Below are positions 52,992 through 64,000 of a stretch of 64,000 nt of DNA, piece by piece. The notes beneath the pieces were generated by a model. That model was not told the origin of the DNA. It made no database searches and worked only from the letters and a program-made list of their open reading frames with translations. This DNA is from Microlunatus endophyticus (lineage in GTDB: Bacteria; Actinomycetota; Actinomycetes; Propionibacteriales; Propionibacteriaceae). Location of the stretch: contig NZ_BMMZ01000018.1 of assembly GCF_014646195.1 (NCBI RefSeq), forward strand, positions 1 to 64,000, given 5' to 3'. A program made the translations under genes and the position numbers. The stretch's first letter is position 1, and every line of letters begins with the position of its first letter.

Positions 52992-54770
52992 GTGTTCACA
53001 ACCAGACCCGAACTCGCCGGAACCTTCGGCATGGTGACCAGCACGCACTGGCTGGCCAGTCAATCTGGCATGGCAGTTCTCGAGGCCGGCGGCAACGCGT
53101 TCGACGCCGCAGTGGCCACCGGTTTCGTGCTCCAGGTCGTCGAGCCCCACCTGAACGGGCCGGGCGGCGACCTTCCGTTGATCTTGAAACACGTCGATCA
53201 TGAACCCGAGGTGCTCAGCGGCCAGGGCGTTGCCCCGGCCGGCGCGACGATCCAGTACTTCCGTGATCTTGGCCTGTCGACGGTGCCCGGTACCGGTCTG
53301 CTGGCCACCGCGGTGCCGGGCTCGACCGTCGCCTGGCTGACATTGCTGCGTGATCACGGCACGCTCTGGCCGGCCGACGTACTGAAGTACGCGATCCGCT
53401 ACGCCGAGGCGGGTTATCCCGTGGTGGAACGGATCTCGGCCCTGGTGAAGAGGATGGCCGACTACTTCACCAGCTACTGGCCGACCTCGGCCCAGACCTG
53501 GTTGCCGGCGCCCGAGCCCGGGCAGCTGCACACCCGGCCGGAGCTGGCCAACACCTACGCCCGGCTGGTCGGTGAGTCGCAGCTGGCCGACACCCGTGAG
53601 GCGGCCTGCGACCGCGCCATCCGGGCCTGGTCGGAGGGTTTCGTCGCCGAGGCGATCGATGCCTTCGTCAAGCGTCCGGTGATGGACAGCTCGGGCCGCG
53701 AACATGCCGGCGTGATCACCGGTGATGATCTTGCCAACTTCCGGCCGGGCTACGAGCGGCCGATGAGTCTGGACTGGCGCGGCAACACGATTTACAAGGC
53801 AGCCGGCTGGGCCCAGAGCCCGGTCTTCCTGGAGACCCTGGGGATCCTTGACCCGTTGTTGGATTCGGTCTTCGGCTCCGGCTCGGACTGGCGGGGTTTC
53901 GGCGCCGACCAGATCCACCACGTGATCGAAGCGCAGAAGCTGGCCTTCGCCGACCGGGACGCGTGGTTCGGCGATGCGCCGGATCATCCGGACCTCGCCG
54001 GGTTGCTGGACGCCGGCTACCTCGACCAGCGCCGCTCCTTGATCGGCGAGGCGGCCTCGCTGGAGTTGCGGCCCGGACGGCTGAACGGCCTGGATCCGCG
54101 GCTTCCGGACTTCTCGGTGGTCACCGACCCGGTCGCCGGCGGCAGCAGCGGCGAGCCGACCGTGCAACGCGACGGCCGGACCAAGGGCGACACCTGCCAC
54201 CTCGACATCGTCGACCGCTGGGGCAACGTCGTCTCGGCGACGCCGAGCGGTGGTTGGCTGCAGTCCTCGCCGACAGTTCCCGAACTCGGGTTCTGTCTCG
54301 GCAGCCGGTTGCAGATGGTCTGGCTCGAGGAGGGCCTGCCGTCGACGCTGGTTCCGGGTCGTAGGCCGCGGACGACGCTGAGCCCGGGTATGGCGGTCGC
54401 CCAGGACGGTACCGTGACCGGCTTCGGTACGCCGGGCGGCGATCAGCAGGACCAGTGGGCGATGGTGTTCTGGCTGGCACACAAGCTGGGCGGCCTGAAT
54501 CTGCAGGCGGCGATCGACCATCCGACCTTCAACATCAAGTCAATGATCTCCAGTTTCGAGCCGCGGGTCCCTGAGCCGGGTGTCGTCGAGGTGGAGGGGC
54601 GGTTCGCCCCGGAAGTCGTGGCCGAACTGGAGAAGCGGGGCCACAAGGTCAAGGTCACCGGGGACTGGGCACTGTCGCGGATGACCGCGGCGTCGTACGA
54701 CCCCTACACCGGGATGCTCAAGGCGGCCGCCAACCCGCGCGGCATGCAGGGTTACGCCGTCGGCCGCTAG
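52992..54770 (+). CDS. Gamma-glutamyltransferase family protein
   Basis: 592 residues, one polypeptide that should self-cleave into two chains. N-terminal THWLASQSGMAVLEAGGNAFDAAVATGF; processing nucleophile Thr in GDTCHLDIVDRWGNVVS (residue ~400). No signal peptide, so it is cytoplasmic, favouring the YwrD/acylase-like subgroup over secreted GGT. GTG start. Its TAG stop is shared with the convergent fabH stop (CTAG). Confidence 0.92.
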   Translation: MFTTRPELAGTFGMVTSTHWLASQSGMAVLEAGGNAFDAAVATGFVLQVVEPHLNGPGGDLPLILKHVDHEPEVLSGQGVAPAGATIQYFRDLGLSTVPGTGLLATAVPGSTVAWLTLLRDHGTLWPADVLKYAIRYAEAGYPVVERISALVKRMADYFTSYWPTSAQTWLPAPEPGQLHTRPELANTYARLVGESQLADTREAACDRAIRAWSEGFVAEAIDAFVKRPVMDSSGREHAGVITGDDLANFRPGYERPMSLDWRGNTIYKAAGWAQSPVFLETLGILDPLLDSVFGSGSDWRGFGADQIHHVIEAQKLAFADRDAWFGDAPDHPDLAGLLDAGYLDQRRSLIGEAASLELRPGRLNGLDPRLPDFSVVTDPVAGGSSGEPTVQRDGRTKGDTCHLDIVDRWGNVVSATPSGGWLQSSPTVPELGFCLGSRLQMVWLEEGLPSTLVPGRRPRTTLSPGMAVAQDGTVTGFGTPGGDQQDQWAMVFWLAHKLGGLNLQAAIDHPTFNIKSMISSFEPRVPEPGVVEVEGRFAPEVVAELEKRGHKVKVTGDWALSRMTAASYDPYTGMLKAAANPRGMQGYAVGR

Positions 54771-55738
54771 CGGGGACGCGGAGTGCGGGCCACCAGTCCC
54801 GCGTAGGCGAAGCCGCCGCCGAAGGCGAAGAGCAGGAAGGGTGTGTCCGGCGGCAGCTCGCCGGCCTGCCACATCTTGGCGAAGGCCAGCGGGATGGAGG
54901 CCGCCGAGGTGTTGCCGGAGGTGACCACGTCGGTGGCGACGATCTTGTCGGCCATCCCGAGCTGTCGGGCCAGCGGCTCGATGATCCGCAGGTTGGCCTG
55001 GTGGCTGATCAGCCCGCCGAGTTCGTCGATCCGGTAACCGGCATTGGTGACGCTCTTGGCCGCATAGCCGGCGGCCTCGGAGATCGCCCACTTGAAGACC
55101 GACTTGCCGTCCTGGGCGAACTTGTTGGTCGGCGGCTCGATCGCCACCGCATCCACAAGCTCTGGCTCGGTGCCCCAGGTGACGGTGCTGATACCCGGTC
55201 GTGAGCTCCGCCGGATCACGAAGGCGGCCGCTGCGTCGGCCACCAGGATGCAGGTGCTGCGATCGGTCCAGTCGGTGACCGCGCTGAGCTTCTCCGACGC
55301 GATCACCAGGGCGGTGGTCGCGGTGCCGGCTTTGATCGCCTGGTCGGCGATCGCCAGCGCGTGCACGTAGCCGGAGCAGGCGACGTTGATGTCGATCACG
55401 ACCGGCGATGGTGCGTCCAGATCCACCGCGACCCGGCCGGCCGTGTTGGGGGAGCGCTGCTCGGAGGTGACGGTGGCGACCACGATCAGGTCGATCACCG
55501 ACGCGTCGATGCCGGCGTTGGCCAGCGCGTCCCGGGCGGCGGCCGTCGCCATCATGGGCACGGTCTCCTCGTCCGAGGCGATCCGCCGTTCCCGGATCCC
55601 GGTACGCTGCCGGATCCACTCGTCGTTGGTCTCCACCATCGACTCGAGCTCATGGTTGGTGAGGACTGTGGCGGGTTGGTAGTACCCGGCTCCGAGGATT
55701 TCGGACCCGCGCCGTACGGCTGTCATGTCGTCGGTCAC
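54767..55738 (-). CDS. fabH: 3-oxoacyl-ACP synthase III (FabH-like)
   Basis: 323 residues. KAS III triad: Cys in NVACSGYVHAL (~121), His in ISHQANLRII (~247) and Asn in TSGNTSAASIPLA (~279). It starts fatty-acid chains by condensing an acyl-CoA with malonyl-ACP. It may serve as the main FabH, since the fab operon at 58-62 kb has none, or make a special starter. The GTG start lies 10 bp from a perfect palindrome shared with the divergent TetR gene. Confidence 0.93.
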   Translation of the reverse strand: MTDDMTAVRRGSEILGAGYYQPATVLTNHELESMVETNDEWIRQRTGIRERRIASDEETVPMMATAAARDALANAGIDASVIDLIVVATVTSEQRSPNTAGRVAVDLDAPSPVVIDINVACSGYVHALAIADQAIKAGTATTALVIASEKLSAVTDWTDRSTCILVADAAAAFVIRRSSRPGISTVTWGTEPELVDAVAIEPPTNKFAQDGKSVFKWAISEAAGYAAKSVTNAGYRIDELGGLISHQANLRIIEPLARQLGMADKIVATDVVTSGNTSAASIPLAFAKMWQAGELPPDTPFLLFAFGGGFAYAGLVARTPRPR

Positions 55739-59611: not shown

Positions 59612-60877
59612 TTACACCTGCCGATGGGTGGCGTACTGGTTCGTGAAGGCGACGGCGACGTTGTGGCCGCCGAAGCCGAAGGAGTTGTTGATGCCGGCAA
59701 GATCACCGGCCGGAAGATCACGAGCGGTGGTCGCGATGTCGATGCCCAGTCCCGGTTCGGGATTGTCCAGGTTGATCGTCGGCGGCACCACCCGGTTGTA
59801 GAGGGCGAGCAGGGTGGCCATCGACTCCAGGGCGCCGGCGCCACCGAGCAGGTGGCCGGTCATGGACTTCGTCGCGGTGACGATCGCCGAGGTGTCGTCG
59901 CCGAGGGCGTACCGGATCGAGGTCGCCTCGGCCGGGTCGCCAGTCGGGGTCGAGGTCGCGTGGGCGTTGACGTGCACGATATCGCCGGGCTCGAGCTCGG
60001 CCTCCTTGAGGGCGATCTTCATCGCCCGGCCCTGGCTCAGTCCGCTCGGATCGGGCTGCACGATGTCGAAGGCGTCCGAGGTCGTCCCGGCGCCGGCCAG
60101 TTCGCCGTAGATCTTCGCTCCGCGCGCCTGCGCGTGCTCGAGCGTCTCCAGGACGAAGATCGCCGCGCCCTCGCCGAGCACGAAACCATCCCGGTCCCGG
60201 TCGAACGGCCGGGATGCGAGCTCGGGCTCGTCGTTGCGGCGGCTGGTGGCCTGCATCTGGCTGAAGGCGTTGATCGGCAGCGGATGGATCACCGATTCCG
60301 AGCCGCCGGCAACGACCACATCGGCCCGGCCCAACCGGATCAGGTCCAGGCCGTGGGCGATCGCCTCGTTGCTGGTGGCGCAGGCCGAGATCGGGGTGTG
60401 CGCGCCGGCCTGGGCACCCAGCCGGATGCTGACCTGGGCCGCTGCGGCATTGCCCATCAGCATCGGCACGGTCAGCGGGCTGACCCGCCGGCCGCCCTTC
60501 TCCTTCTGGATGTCCCACTGGCCCAGCAGGGTGTGCATGCCACCGATACCGGTGCCGATGCTGGTCGCCAGCCGCTCCCGGTCCACCGGGTTGTCCTCGC
60601 CGAAACCGTATCCGGCGTCCTGCCATGCCTGGTTGGCGGCGATGATCGCCAGCTGGGCGAACCGGTCGAGGCGGCGCGCCTCGACTCGGTCCAGCACCTC
60701 ACCCGGATCGACGACCAGCTGACCGGCGATCCGGGCGGGCAGATCGGCGGCCCAGTCGGCCTCGATGGCCCGGACGCCGGACTTACCGGCGACCATATTG
60801 GCCCAGGTGGACTCCACGTCGCCGCCCAGCGGCGTAGTAGCTCCGAGACCGGTGACAACGACTGGCGTCCGGGACAT
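59612..60877 (-). CDS. fabF: 3-oxoacyl-ACP synthase II (FabF)
   Basis: 421 residues. KAS II triad: Cys in SACATSNEAIAHG (~172), His in VNAHATSTPTGD (~310) and His in MTGHLLGGAGALE (~346), plus NSFGFGGHN near the end. Elongates acyl-ACP by two carbons using malonyl-ACP. It follows acpP by 45 bp. Confidence 0.97.
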   Translation of the reverse strand: MSRTPVVVTGLGATTPLGGDVESTWANMVAGKSGVRAIEADWAADLPARIAGQLVVDPGEVLDRVEARRLDRFAQLAIIAANQAWQDAGYGFGEDNPVDRERLATSIGTGIGGMHTLLGQWDIQKEKGGRRVSPLTVPMLMGNAAAAQVSIRLGAQAGAHTPISACATSNEAIAHGLDLIRLGRADVVVAGGSESVIHPLPINAFSQMQATSRRNDEPELASRPFDRDRDGFVLGEGAAIFVLETLEHAQARGAKIYGELAGAGTTSDAFDIVQPDPSGLSQGRAMKIALKEAELEPGDIVHVNAHATSTPTGDPAEATSIRYALGDDTSAIVTATKSMTGHLLGGAGALESMATLLALYNRVVPPTINLDNPEPGLGIDIATTARDLPAGDLAGINNSFGFGGHNVAVAFTNQYATHRQV

Positions 60878-60922
60878 CAGTGAGTGCTCCTTGCAGAGGT
60901 GCCTAGCGGAAGTGAGTTCGGA

Positions 60923-61168
60923 TCAGGCAGCAGCGCGCTCGATGTAGGCGACTGCGTCACCGACGGTCTTGAGGTTCTTGGCCTCCTCGTCGGGGATGCT
61001 GACGCCGAACTTCTCCTCCGCGGCGTAGATGATCTCGACCATCGAGAGCGAGTCGACGTCGAGATCATCGGTGAACGACTTGTCCAGCTGTACGTCGTCG
61101 GCCGGCACGCCGGCGACCTCGTTGACGATCTCGGCCAGGTCGCTGCGGATCTCTTCGGTGGTTGCCAT
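60923..61168 (-). CDS. acpP: Acyl carrier protein
   Basis: 81 residues, acidic. The phosphopantetheine Ser is in DVDSLSMVEI (~42). Carries the growing chain. ATG 61168 has AAGGAG about 9 nt upstream; the frame is open further but homology starts at MATTEEIRSDL. It lies between fabD and fabF. Confidence 0.97.
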   Translation of the reverse strand: MATTEEIRSDLAEIVNEVAGVPADDVQLDKSFTDDLDVDSLSMVEIIYAAEEKFGVSIPDEEAKNLKTVGDAVAYIERAAA

Positions 61169-61269
61169 CTGGTCTTTCTCCTTGGGTTGTCCGATCGTGC
61201 TGATGCTCGATCTTTGTTGTCGCCGCCGGCGAGGCCGGACAAGCGAGGCAGGTGGGTTGGGGCTAGCGG

Positions 61270-62484
61270 TCAGTGGCCGATCTCGGAGGCCCCAGGAGAC
61301 TCGACCATCGGATGCAGTCTGACCAGCGGCTGGCCGGGTGAGACCGGATCGCCGTCCTCGGCAAGCCACTCGACCACGATGCCGCCATGCGGTGCGGTCA
61401 CCGGGATCTCGTCGCGGAGGTTCTTGACCGCCCCGACCGTGCTCAGGTCGGGGAGCAGGGTGCCGGGCGGCAGATCGTCGGTGCGGACGAACTGCCCCTT
61501 GCCCGGTGAGACGATCAGCCGCCAGGTCGGGTTGCCGGAGATCGCCGTGGCGGCCGTGTCGGCGTGCTTGCGGACGAAGTCGGCGGCCTCGGGGAGCTGG
61601 TCCGGGGTGTTCAGCGCGAACACCTCGACGCCCTTGAGATTGCGTTTGGCGATCCCCGTCAGGGTTCCCGCCGGCGGTACCTCCAACAGCCCGGTCACGC
61701 CGAGATCGGCCATCGTGGCCATGCACAGGTCCCAGCGCACCGGTGAGGCGACCTGCCGGACGATGCGGCCCAGCACCTCCGACCCGTCGTGGACGATCTG
61801 ACCGTCGACGTTGGACAGCAGCCGGGTTCGCGGGTCGTGGGTGGTGACCGACCGAGCCAGGGCCGCCAGCCGGTCCACGGCCGGAGCCATGTGGACGGTG
61901 TGGAACGCGCCCGCGACGCTGAGCCCGATCAGCCGGGCCCGGTTCGGCGGGTCTGCCGCCAACGCGGCCAGCTGGTCCGTGGTGCCGGCGGCGACGATCT
62001 GGCCCCGGCCGTTGTTGTTGGCCGCGGTCAGGCCGTGCTCGGCGATCTTGTCCAGCACCTCGTCCGGGTCGCCGCCGATCACTGCGGTCATCGAGGTCGG
62101 CCTGGCGGCGCTCGCCTCGGCCATCGCCCTACCGCGCTCGCGGACCAGCACCATTGCCTGTTCGGCGCTCAGCACCCCGACTCCGGCCGCGGCGGTCAGC
62201 TCGCCGACGGAATGTCCGGCCGCGACCCCGACCTGGCTGAAGGCATCGGCAGGATGCGGGAAGAGCTCCAGGGCCGCCAGCAACCCGGAGGCGACCAGCA
62301 GCGGCTGGGCCACTGCGGTGTCGCGGATGGTGTCGGCATCCGCCTCGGTGCCGTAGTGCTCCAGATCCAGGCCGCTGACCGCCGACAACCAGGCCAGCCG
62401 TTCGGCGAAGGAGGATTCGGCGATCCACGGCTTCAGGAAACCGGGGGTCTGGGCGCCCTGGCCGGGCGCGACAACGGCGAGCAC
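61270..62484 (-). CDS. fabD: Malonyl-CoA:ACP transacylase with C-terminal biotinyl/lipoyl-like domain
   Basis: 404 residues, about 100 more than usual FabD. The transacylase part (1-~300) has GQGAQTPGFLKPW, nucleophile GHSVGELTAAAGVGVL (Ser ~93) and His in AGAFHTVHMAP. It moves malonyl from CoA to ACP. The extra domain (residues ~320-395) includes VGAVKNLRDEIPVTAPHGG and DGDPVSPGQPLVRL, a barrel-sandwich fold with Lys354 at the place of the biotinyl/lipoyl lysine. GTG start, first enzyme gene of the operon, 94 bp after fasR. Confidence 0.93.
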   Translation of the reverse strand: MLAVVAPGQGAQTPGFLKPWIAESSFAERLAWLSAVSGLDLEHYGTEADADTIRDTAVAQPLLVASGLLAALELFPHPADAFSQVGVAAGHSVGELTAAAGVGVLSAEQAMVLVRERGRAMAEASAARPTSMTAVIGGDPDEVLDKIAEHGLTAANNNGRGQIVAAGTTDQLAALAADPPNRARLIGLSVAGAFHTVHMAPAVDRLAALARSVTTHDPRTRLLSNVDGQIVHDGSEVLGRIVRQVASPVRWDLCMATMADLGVTGLLEVPPAGTLTGIAKRNLKGVEVFALNTPDQLPEAADFVRKHADTAATAISGNPTWRLIVSPGKGQFVRTDDLPPGTLLPDLSTVGAVKNLRDEIPVTAPHGGIVVEWLAEDGDPVSPGQPLVRLHPMVESPGASEIGH

Positions 62485-62578: not shown

Positions 62579-63808
62579 CTATCCGCGTCCGCTGTCGCGG
62601 CCGTCGGGCAGCAGCCGGCCGAGCGTCAGCGCCAGCCGCAGGCCGTACGCGTCCCGGGCGTCACTGGGGCTGTAGCCGGTCACCTCCTGGATCCGCTTGA
62701 GCCGGTAGCGGACCGTGTTGGCGTGCACGAACAGCGCTCGGGCGGTGGCCTCCACACTGCTGTTGTTGTCCAGGAACACCACGAGGGTCTCCAACAGGCC
62801 GCTGCCGCTGTCGGCCAGCGGGCCGAAGACCGTGCGGGCCAAGGCACGCCGGGCGTGTCCGTCACCGGACAGTGCCCGCTCCGGCAACAGATCGTCGGCG
62901 AGCACCGGCCGGGGGGCGTTCGGCCAGCCGACCGCCGCCCGGTAACCGGACAGTGCTGCGCGGGTGGAGCGCGCCGCATCGGCCAGATGCTCGACCGGCG
63001 GCCCGACCACGACCGGGCCGGGCCCGAAGATGCCGGCGAACCGGGTGACCACGGCCAGCGCGGCCTCCGGTTCGGCGATCCGGTCGCCGCCGAGCACCAC
63101 CAGCAGCCGATCGCCCTGGACGGCCCCGAGCATGTCGACACCGGCCTTGGCACACTCGTGCCGGATGCCCTCGATCGCGACGCCGGTCTCGTCCTCGGGC
63201 TCGGGGCCGACCACGACCACCACATCGGCCGACGACCGCCAGCCGAGGGCGGAGGCGCGGGACAGCACGCTCTCGTCGGTCTCGCCGCGGATCACCGCGT
63301 CGGCCACCAGCGCCTCGAGCCGGGCATCCCAAGCGCCGCGCAGCTCGGCCGCCCGGGCGTAGATCTCAGCGGCGGTGAAGGCCACCTCCCGGCTGTACTG
63401 GACGATCGCCGCCTGCAGCACCGGCCGGTCGCTGCGCGGCATCAACTCGTCGATCTGCTTCTCGGCCACCTCGATCGTCGTCCGCACCAGCTCGACCGTC
63501 TGGTAGAGCGAGATCCGCCGGGCCAGCTCACGGGGAGCGGAGCCGAACACGTCAGCGGTCGACGGCGGGCTGGGCTCCGGGCTGGAGAACCAGTGCACGA
63601 AACCGTCGATACCGGCCTGGGCGACCAGGGTGATCCAGGACCTGTGCTTGGCATCCAGCTCACTGAACCAGGGGTGCCGTACCTCCATCTCGGCGACCGC
63701 CGCGGTCGTCATCTCGCCCGATACCGCCGCCATCCGCTTGGCGATCGCGGCCCGGGACTTGGGAGACGGCAGCAGGGTCCGGCTGATGCCGCGTGAGGAT
63801 GCCGCCAT
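62579..63808 (-). CDS. fasR: PucR-family activator of fatty-acid synthesis genes (FasR-like)
   Basis: 409 residues. The N-terminal sensory part covers ~1-300 and includes RISLYQTVELVRTTIEV; the C-terminal PucR helix-turn-helix is FLDNNSSVEATARALFVHANTVRYRLKRI and EVTGYSPSDARDAYGLRLAL. In Streptomyces the FasR gene lies upstream of fabD and activates fabD-fabH-acpP-fabF; the position here is the same. ATG 63808. Confidence 0.93.
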   Translation of the reverse strand: MAASSRGISRTLLPSPKSRAAIAKRMAAVSGEMTTAAVAEMEVRHPWFSELDAKHRSWITLVAQAGIDGFVHWFSSPEPSPPSTADVFGSAPRELARRISLYQTVELVRTTIEVAEKQIDELMPRSDRPVLQAAIVQYSREVAFTAAEIYARAAELRGAWDARLEALVADAVIRGETDESVLSRASALGWRSSADVVVVVGPEPEDETGVAIEGIRHECAKAGVDMLGAVQGDRLLVVLGGDRIAEPEAALAVVTRFAGIFGPGPVVVGPPVEHLADAARSTRAALSGYRAAVGWPNAPRPVLADDLLPERALSGDGHARRALARTVFGPLADSGSGLLETLVVFLDNNSSVEATARALFVHANTVRYRLKRIQEVTGYSPSDARDAYGLRLALTLGRLLPDGRDSGRG

Positions 63809-63895
63809 GCGTGGCAGCGTATGCCACCGGTTGCCCCCGCGTGGCGGCGGGCGATCCGGAGGCGGATCGTCCGGAACCGGATCTACTGTCGCGGC

Positions 63896-64000
63896 ATGCA
63901 GATCGACGGCTATCGGATCGCGGCGCTGTCGCCGCAGACCTGGGACGCCTTCGCGGCCCTGGCCGAGCGCCACAACGGTGTCTTCGGCGGCTGCTGGTGC
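63896..64000 (+). CDS. GNAT-like acetyltransferase, truncated by the window end
   Basis: Only the first 35 residues are present, beginning MQIDGYRIAALSPQTWDAFA and continuing LAERHNGVFGGCWC without a stop. This N-terminal pattern, ending in a Gly-Gly-Cys-Trp-Cys stretch, is typical of a GNAT subgroup common in actinobacteria. It is divergent from fasR by 87 bp. Confidence 0.7.
   Translation, partial: MQIDGYRIAALSPQTWDAFAALAERHNGVFGGCWC

Follow-up and report, generated by a model that had tools for sequence, protein, structure and literature searches.

ACC makes malonyl-CoA and FabD commits the malonyl group to fatty acids, and whether the two enzymes are physically coupled in bacteria is, to our knowledge, an open question. 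The stretch of 64,000 nucleotides from Microlunatus endophyticus analysed here (the window) raises it in a specific form, namely what the additional domain at the C-terminus of its FabD is, and whether this domain connects the two steps. In the open literature (titles and abstracts; subscription papers and preprints lay outside the scope) no description of a biotinyl-like domain on FabD was found, and passages of PMC6491548 concern other carboxylases.

The gene stands in a row of genes on the minus strand, which comprises a PucR-type regulator, fabD, acpP, fabF and accD (Table 1). On sequence grounds its core is a FabD, for which malonyl transfer is predicted. Specifically, the protein has the GHSxGE nucleophile motif together with the catalytic His and Arg, which we take to be the mark of FabD, and Ser92, Arg117 and His195 (presumably the catalytic residues) are invariant among 50 sequences. 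In its catalytic core the protein shares 57% of identical residues with FabD of S. coelicolor (1nm2) and 50% with that of M. tuberculosis (2qc3). Despite the former value, the protein reaches only 163.5 bits against the NCBIfam model TIGR00128 (fabD; cut-off 260.9), a miss that we read as the effect of a strict equivalog cut-off. The chains of 1nm2 and 2qc3 end near core residue 305-317 without a C-terminal domain, whereas the window FabD has one. The AccD of the run is, by sequence comparison, orthologous to M. tuberculosis AccD6 (4fb8/4l6w; E 4e-197 over 466 residues, the next family being PccB at E 3e-119).

Table 1. Features of the fabD fusion gene and of its operon (window coordinates)
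Feature	Position	Strand	Evidence or remark
fabD fusion gene	61270..62484	-	One 404-aa ORF with GTG start; phmmer match to 1nm2, E 1.5e-96; AF2 pLDDT 90
FabD (malonyl-CoA:ACP transacylase) core, residues 1-305	61570..62484	-	Pfam Acyl_transf_1; invariant columns; Foldseek match to 1nm2
Linker, residues 306-318	61531..61569	-	Poor conservation; pLDDT <50 at 313-319
BCCP-like barrel-sandwich domain, residues 319-393	61306..61530	-	AF2 model; realignment to 1bdo; Biotin_lipoyl
Arg357 codon	61414..61416	-	Biotinyl-Lys position of the hairpin, from alignments and homologue counts
Lys354 codon	61423..61425	-	Aligned with Glu of EAMKM; not conserved
accD, AccD6-type carboxyltransferase, 477 aa	58168..59601	-	Carboxyl_trans; start inferred at ATG 59601
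fabF (KAS II)	59612..60877	-	Pfam ketoacyl-synt
acpP (acyl carrier protein)	60923..61171	-	Pfam PP-binding
PucR-type regulator upstream of fabD	62579..63973	-	Pfam HTH_30 and GGDEF_2; adjoins fabD in most relatives' loci

A preliminary description of the locus had recognized a biotinyl/lipoyl-like domain in the tail of the protein and had suggested a structure prediction, and the domain proves to be real. The AF2 model of the isolated domain (built from 62 sequences) is all-beta with a pLDDT of 88, and its predicted fold is the barrel-sandwich of about 75-80 residues that characterizes BCCPs. Its best Foldseek match in the PDB is the biotinyl domain of E. coli BCCP (1bdo, E 1.2e-5), with a Z of 12.3 and an rmsd of 2.5 over 74 residues upon realignment; 1bdo, 4hr7 and 9a87 (Z about 12) head the list of structural matches, and most of the entries that follow 1bdo are BCCPs as well. 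At the sequence level, Pfam Biotin_lipoyl matches 32 of 32 aligned homologous extensions at E <= 0.01 (best 8e-10), while the window's own tail stays just below the cut-off (20.3 bits vs 22.1). A profile of the 32 extensions finds transcarboxylase 1.3S (1dcz, E 4e-7) and E. coli BCCP (E 3e-5) among PDB sequences, but it scores best against an RND efflux fusion protein (1.8e-9), followed by a lipoyl E2 (8e-8), and BCCP is thus not singled out by sequence alone. A chance resemblance to a biotinyl domain is ruled out by the consistent Biotin_lipoyl matches together with the structural match to 1bdo.

The domain shares with the BCCP of E. coli AccB the barrel-sandwich fold, the GTF turn and the half with the pattern VVExLVEDGxPVxxGQPL. 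It differs in lacking EAMKM, in having Arg in place of the biotinyl Lys, in being shorter at the BCCP insert (an alignment gap) and in being fused to FabD. With the lipoyl domains of E2 and GcvH it has the superfamily fold in common, but it lacks the lipoyl Lys motif, and such domains rank below BCCPs structurally. The C-terminal domain of FabD is therefore called BCCP-like here and is not filed as a BCCP, and there is a risk that annotation tools could take it for a working biotin carrier.

Whether the domain can carry a prosthetic group depends on its hairpin. The preliminary description had held that the position of the modified lysine is kept, by Lys354, and that the domain may be modified or may carry CO2 or an acyl group. 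Both a profile alignment to 1dcz and a MAFFT alignment with three BCCPs instead place Lys354 on the Glu of EAMK(M), three residues early, and Arg357 on the biotinyl Lys without any gap; counting from the conserved Ala of the next strand gives the same assignment for both residues. Among 103 distinct close FabD homologues (from 110 loci), 26 have Lys and 44 have Ala at position 354, and 101 have Arg at position 357. A broader set of 115, covering the order as well as further families of the class, has Lys at position 354 in seven; at position 357 it has Arg in 103 and never Lys. Poor conservation of Lys354 had been named beforehand, along with a protein free of biotin and lipoate, as the outcome that would speak against the proposal, and this first half, which concerns the sequences, is what was found.

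Neither the biotinylated Lys of an (E)AMKM hairpin nor the lipoylated Lys of a DKA- or SVKA-like hairpin is present, the residue there being Arg. Since position 357 mostly holds Arg and never Lys, biotinylation or lipoylation at the normal place is impossible, and judged from sequence, biotin or lipoate on the hairpin is very unlikely. In favour of a modified carrier (of biotin, lipoate, CO2 or an acyl group) one could cite the barrel-sandwich fold and a Lys in the hairpin of the window protein. K329 is frequent in homologues (89/106) but sits in the first beta-turn of the domain, outside the hairpin. With Lys354 misplaced and poorly conserved, and Arg at 357, a modified lysine is rejected, and we regard carriage in any of these forms as extremely improbable. 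The domain is likewise not a substitute for a missing BCCP, which is ruled out by the nine Biotin_lipoyl matches above cut-off in the window genome; at least three of these (L270-L272) carry the canonical MKM motif.

The fusion of FabD with this lysine-less BCCP-like domain is widespread in the window's class, where the extension profile matches 123 of 394 genomes (E <= 1e-12). Named carriers include Microlunatus, Desertihabitans, Auraticoccus, Granulicoccus and Propionicimonas within the Propionibacteriaceae, as well as Nocardioides, Kribbella, Actinopolymorpha, Jiangella and Haloactinopolyspora. Of the 60 loci inspected (L199-L258), 59 encode the extension as an in-frame continuation of FabD, and in the remaining one, L253, the contig starts at the domain. 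A peculiarity of the window genome is thereby ruled out, as 39 of 40 relatives give a FabD match, most of them with the extension, and many more are found across the class. In a sample of 246 genomes of the phylum, some of them from the window's class, the profile has two matches (E <= 1e-12), and both genomes belong to that class. One locus, L285 (genome G403), encodes a FabD with a half-size extension that misses the hairpin; its family also includes FabDs with the full extension and FabDs with none.

A first sign that the domain follows a particular neighbour came from eight relatives without the extension, from all of whose loci accD was absent. FabD was found at E <= 1e-70 in 251 of 293 genomes. 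Of these, 80 of the 97 lower-scoring genomes were searched again for AccD, and 70 of the other 154, hand-picked for spread, were tested too; the 80 were reduced to 77, since G119 and G260 proved to have the extension and a contig end cuts the FabD of G191, and the C-terminus was read in 70 of the 77. In the window's order, an AccD orthologue (E <= 1.6e-217) is present in 65 of the 70 tested genomes with the extension, and in 64 of those 65 accD lies on the fabD contig, 3.0-4.2 kb away from start to start. A genome-wide search found an AccD orthologue in none of the 77 tested genomes whose FabD is domain-less (with a stop near residue 310-335). The five exceptions, with extension and without AccD, are G147, G160, G145, G173 and G038. 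The nearest protein among the 77, in G253, is a 53% AccD-like protein encoded far from fabD (G253:C1:163958-165322, E 1e-141), with a score between orthologue and paralogue.

Counts of this kind may reflect relatedness, and a tree of 149 loci was therefore built on FabF, ACP and the core of FabD, with L001-L030, L195, six duplicate records and certain loci of unknown AccD state excluded and a small number of Jiangella-group loci that fall outside the order included. On this tree 16 changes of the extension are counted and 19 of AccD. Across 13 supported independent pairs, AccD differs in the same way as the extension in 11.8 (on average), in the opposite way in none and shows no difference in 1.2, with a median p of 0.0005; the result is the same without L115, L112 and L114, whose AccD state was taken from the operon alone or from a short contig. 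Two controls from the same operon were not significant, namely fabH (1.6 pairs the same way) and the regulator (1.5 pairs the same way, 0.3 opposite). Extension and AccD6 are co-inherited in the window's order, beyond what shared ancestry accounts for (p about 0.0005).

The association is not symmetrical. Within the tree set, the extension occurs without AccD at five loci, and the reverse combination at none. For the class (n=394; cut-offs 1e-12 for the extension and 1e-150 for AccD) both are present in 110 genomes, the extension only in 13, AccD only in 123 and neither in 148, with a Fisher p of 5e-18 that ignores phylogeny. Seven of the 13 extension genomes (of 123) that lack AccD at E <= 1e-150 are <=91% complete, and the locus of G371 does contain a piece of AccD. 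Outside the order, 16 AccD6 operons without the extension were seen, in families f7, f20, f17 and f29. Since AccD6 orthologues stand in extension-less operons of other orders, the domain is dispensable for AccD6, and because AccD6 so often occurs without the extension there, it is the domain that depends on AccD and not AccD on the domain.

The state of the domain where AccD is absent points the same way. Arg357 is kept in 4 of 9 homologues without AccD vs 99 of 106 with it (seven of the 106 lack it), counts that are not corrected for relatedness (L184-L186 share a genus); the group of 106 includes L237, whose AccD (E 6e-168) lies outside the operon, and L254, assigned by locus. Domains without AccD also tend to be conserved below the expectation from their FabD core (p 0.0008, the AccD-bearing rows serving as consensus and relatedness again being uncorrected), with L188 and L228 as intact-looking exceptions. 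In L146, which has no AccD orthologue, the second half of the domain survives behind the fabD stop as a remnant in another reading frame. In L121-L123, also without AccD, the domain is gone but the terminal, DATEVTR-like tail is present, as in the fused form found in L189 of the same genus code. From the asymmetry (5 vs 0), the eroded domains and the remnants without AccD, we read the order of events as a loss of AccD first, with decay of the domain afterwards.

That the domain is a relic with no role of its own might be suspected from the 16 state changes on the tree, which show that it can be lost repeatedly. Yet all 106 AccD-bearing homologues, drawn from many families, share E372, D379, G384 and R389, and 104 of them keep W373; conservation in the second half of the domain also equals that of the FabD core, which makes this explanation very improbable.

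A harder case is that of a different partner, be it ACP, FabH, FabF, FabD itself, the alpha subunit or the cell envelope, with the co-loss of domain and AccD amounting to general remodelling of the fab operon. The operon context is compatible with it, as are the intact-looking domains of L188 and L228, retained in genomes without AccD, and AccD6 works elsewhere without the extension. However, fabH, acpP and fabF remain in most loci that lack the extension, and the independent pairs are null for fabH and the regulator and positive for AccD, so that we consider a different partner unlikely, if worth keeping in mind.

Co-inheritance with one enzyme that makes malonyl-CoA suggests that the domain links both steps. 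More specifically, the domain may be a pseudo-BCCP that docks FabD on the AccD6-type carboxylase of the operon, which is the reading we prefer, although we find the case for and against it evenly balanced, and which is drawn from the fact that retention of a BCCP-shaped domain depends on a carboxyltransferase. The C-terminus of FabD would keep the biotinyl fold of BCCP with Arg replacing the biotinylated Lys, and the flexible linker would let this shape dock, as a mimic, where the real BCCP docks on the AccD6-type acyl-CoA carboxylase. Malonyl-CoA would thus be produced beside the enzyme that passes malonyl to ACP. Among the options listed in the preliminary description was a non-modified docking piece, and a link to AccD had been proposed there from the shared operon; the unmodifiable hairpin agrees with the former, and the co-occurrence supports the latter. 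Computation shows the fusion, its fold, the lost Lys, the conservation in the class, the co-inheritance with AccD in the order and the erosion once AccD is lost; that FabD physically docks, that it contacts AccD and not the biotinylated alpha subunit, and that this serves channelling or regulation is what we infer. Extended to the whole class, the proposal becomes more tentative and somewhat doubtful: a lysine-less BCCP plug, reused on FabD, would seat in the BCCP site of AccD6 with Arg replacing the biotinyl arm, and the ACC-FabD complex would hand malonyl-CoA directly to ACP loading.

Co-inheritance fits docking and regulation alike and cannot tell them apart. As a regulator instead of a tether, the domain would compete with biotinylated BCCP for its site on AccD, or else for biotin carboxylase, and the abundance or loading of FabD would throttle malonyl-CoA synthesis. 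The same fold and AccD evidence apply as for docking, and an Arg-bearing mimic could conceivably fill the site without turnover; but FabD is a stoichiometric pathway enzyme, for which a permanent competitor would presumably be costly, and regulation of this kind seems to us distinctly improbable.

If docking is the correct reading, the domain offers a docking module for engineering malonyl-CoA flux. A co-inherited BCCP mimic on FabD is in any event a specific and testable case of coupling, for which sister genera provide natural knock-outs, and the pairing indicates which AccD serves fatty acid synthesis in actinobacteria with several AccDs.

In mycobacteria, the AccD6 of the FAS-II operon is orthologous to the window AccD. 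In the loci of family f7 (L275, L276, L289 and L290) accD lies downstream of fabD, acp and the KAS genes (fabD-acp-kasA-kasB-accD6), which agrees with the gene order of M. tuberculosis. Unlike the extension carriers, operons of this mycobacterial type have a FabD without extension and a second KAS gene where fabH would be.

Some further observations concern individual genes of the operon. A scan for terminators and promoters returned nothing beyond shuffled sequence. In AccD, an exploratory comparison finds R184 in 98% of 81 extension carriers vs 1 of 16 without the extension, and R193 in 100% vs 31%; both may be contact residues, against which stands L286, where the two are kept and the extension is absent. 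In the loci most closely related to the window (L001-L004), fabD and acpP have no fabH between them, unlike the other compared loci that extend this far. In the window this concerns the interval 60877-61270, and a KAS III-like ORF is found at 54767-55738 (minus strand), 4 kb downstream of the neighbourhood of accD. The diverged extensions of L237 and L242 have RQG instead of LRD in the hairpin and no accD in the locus, and the fabH of both is nearer to the type at 54767-55738 of the window.
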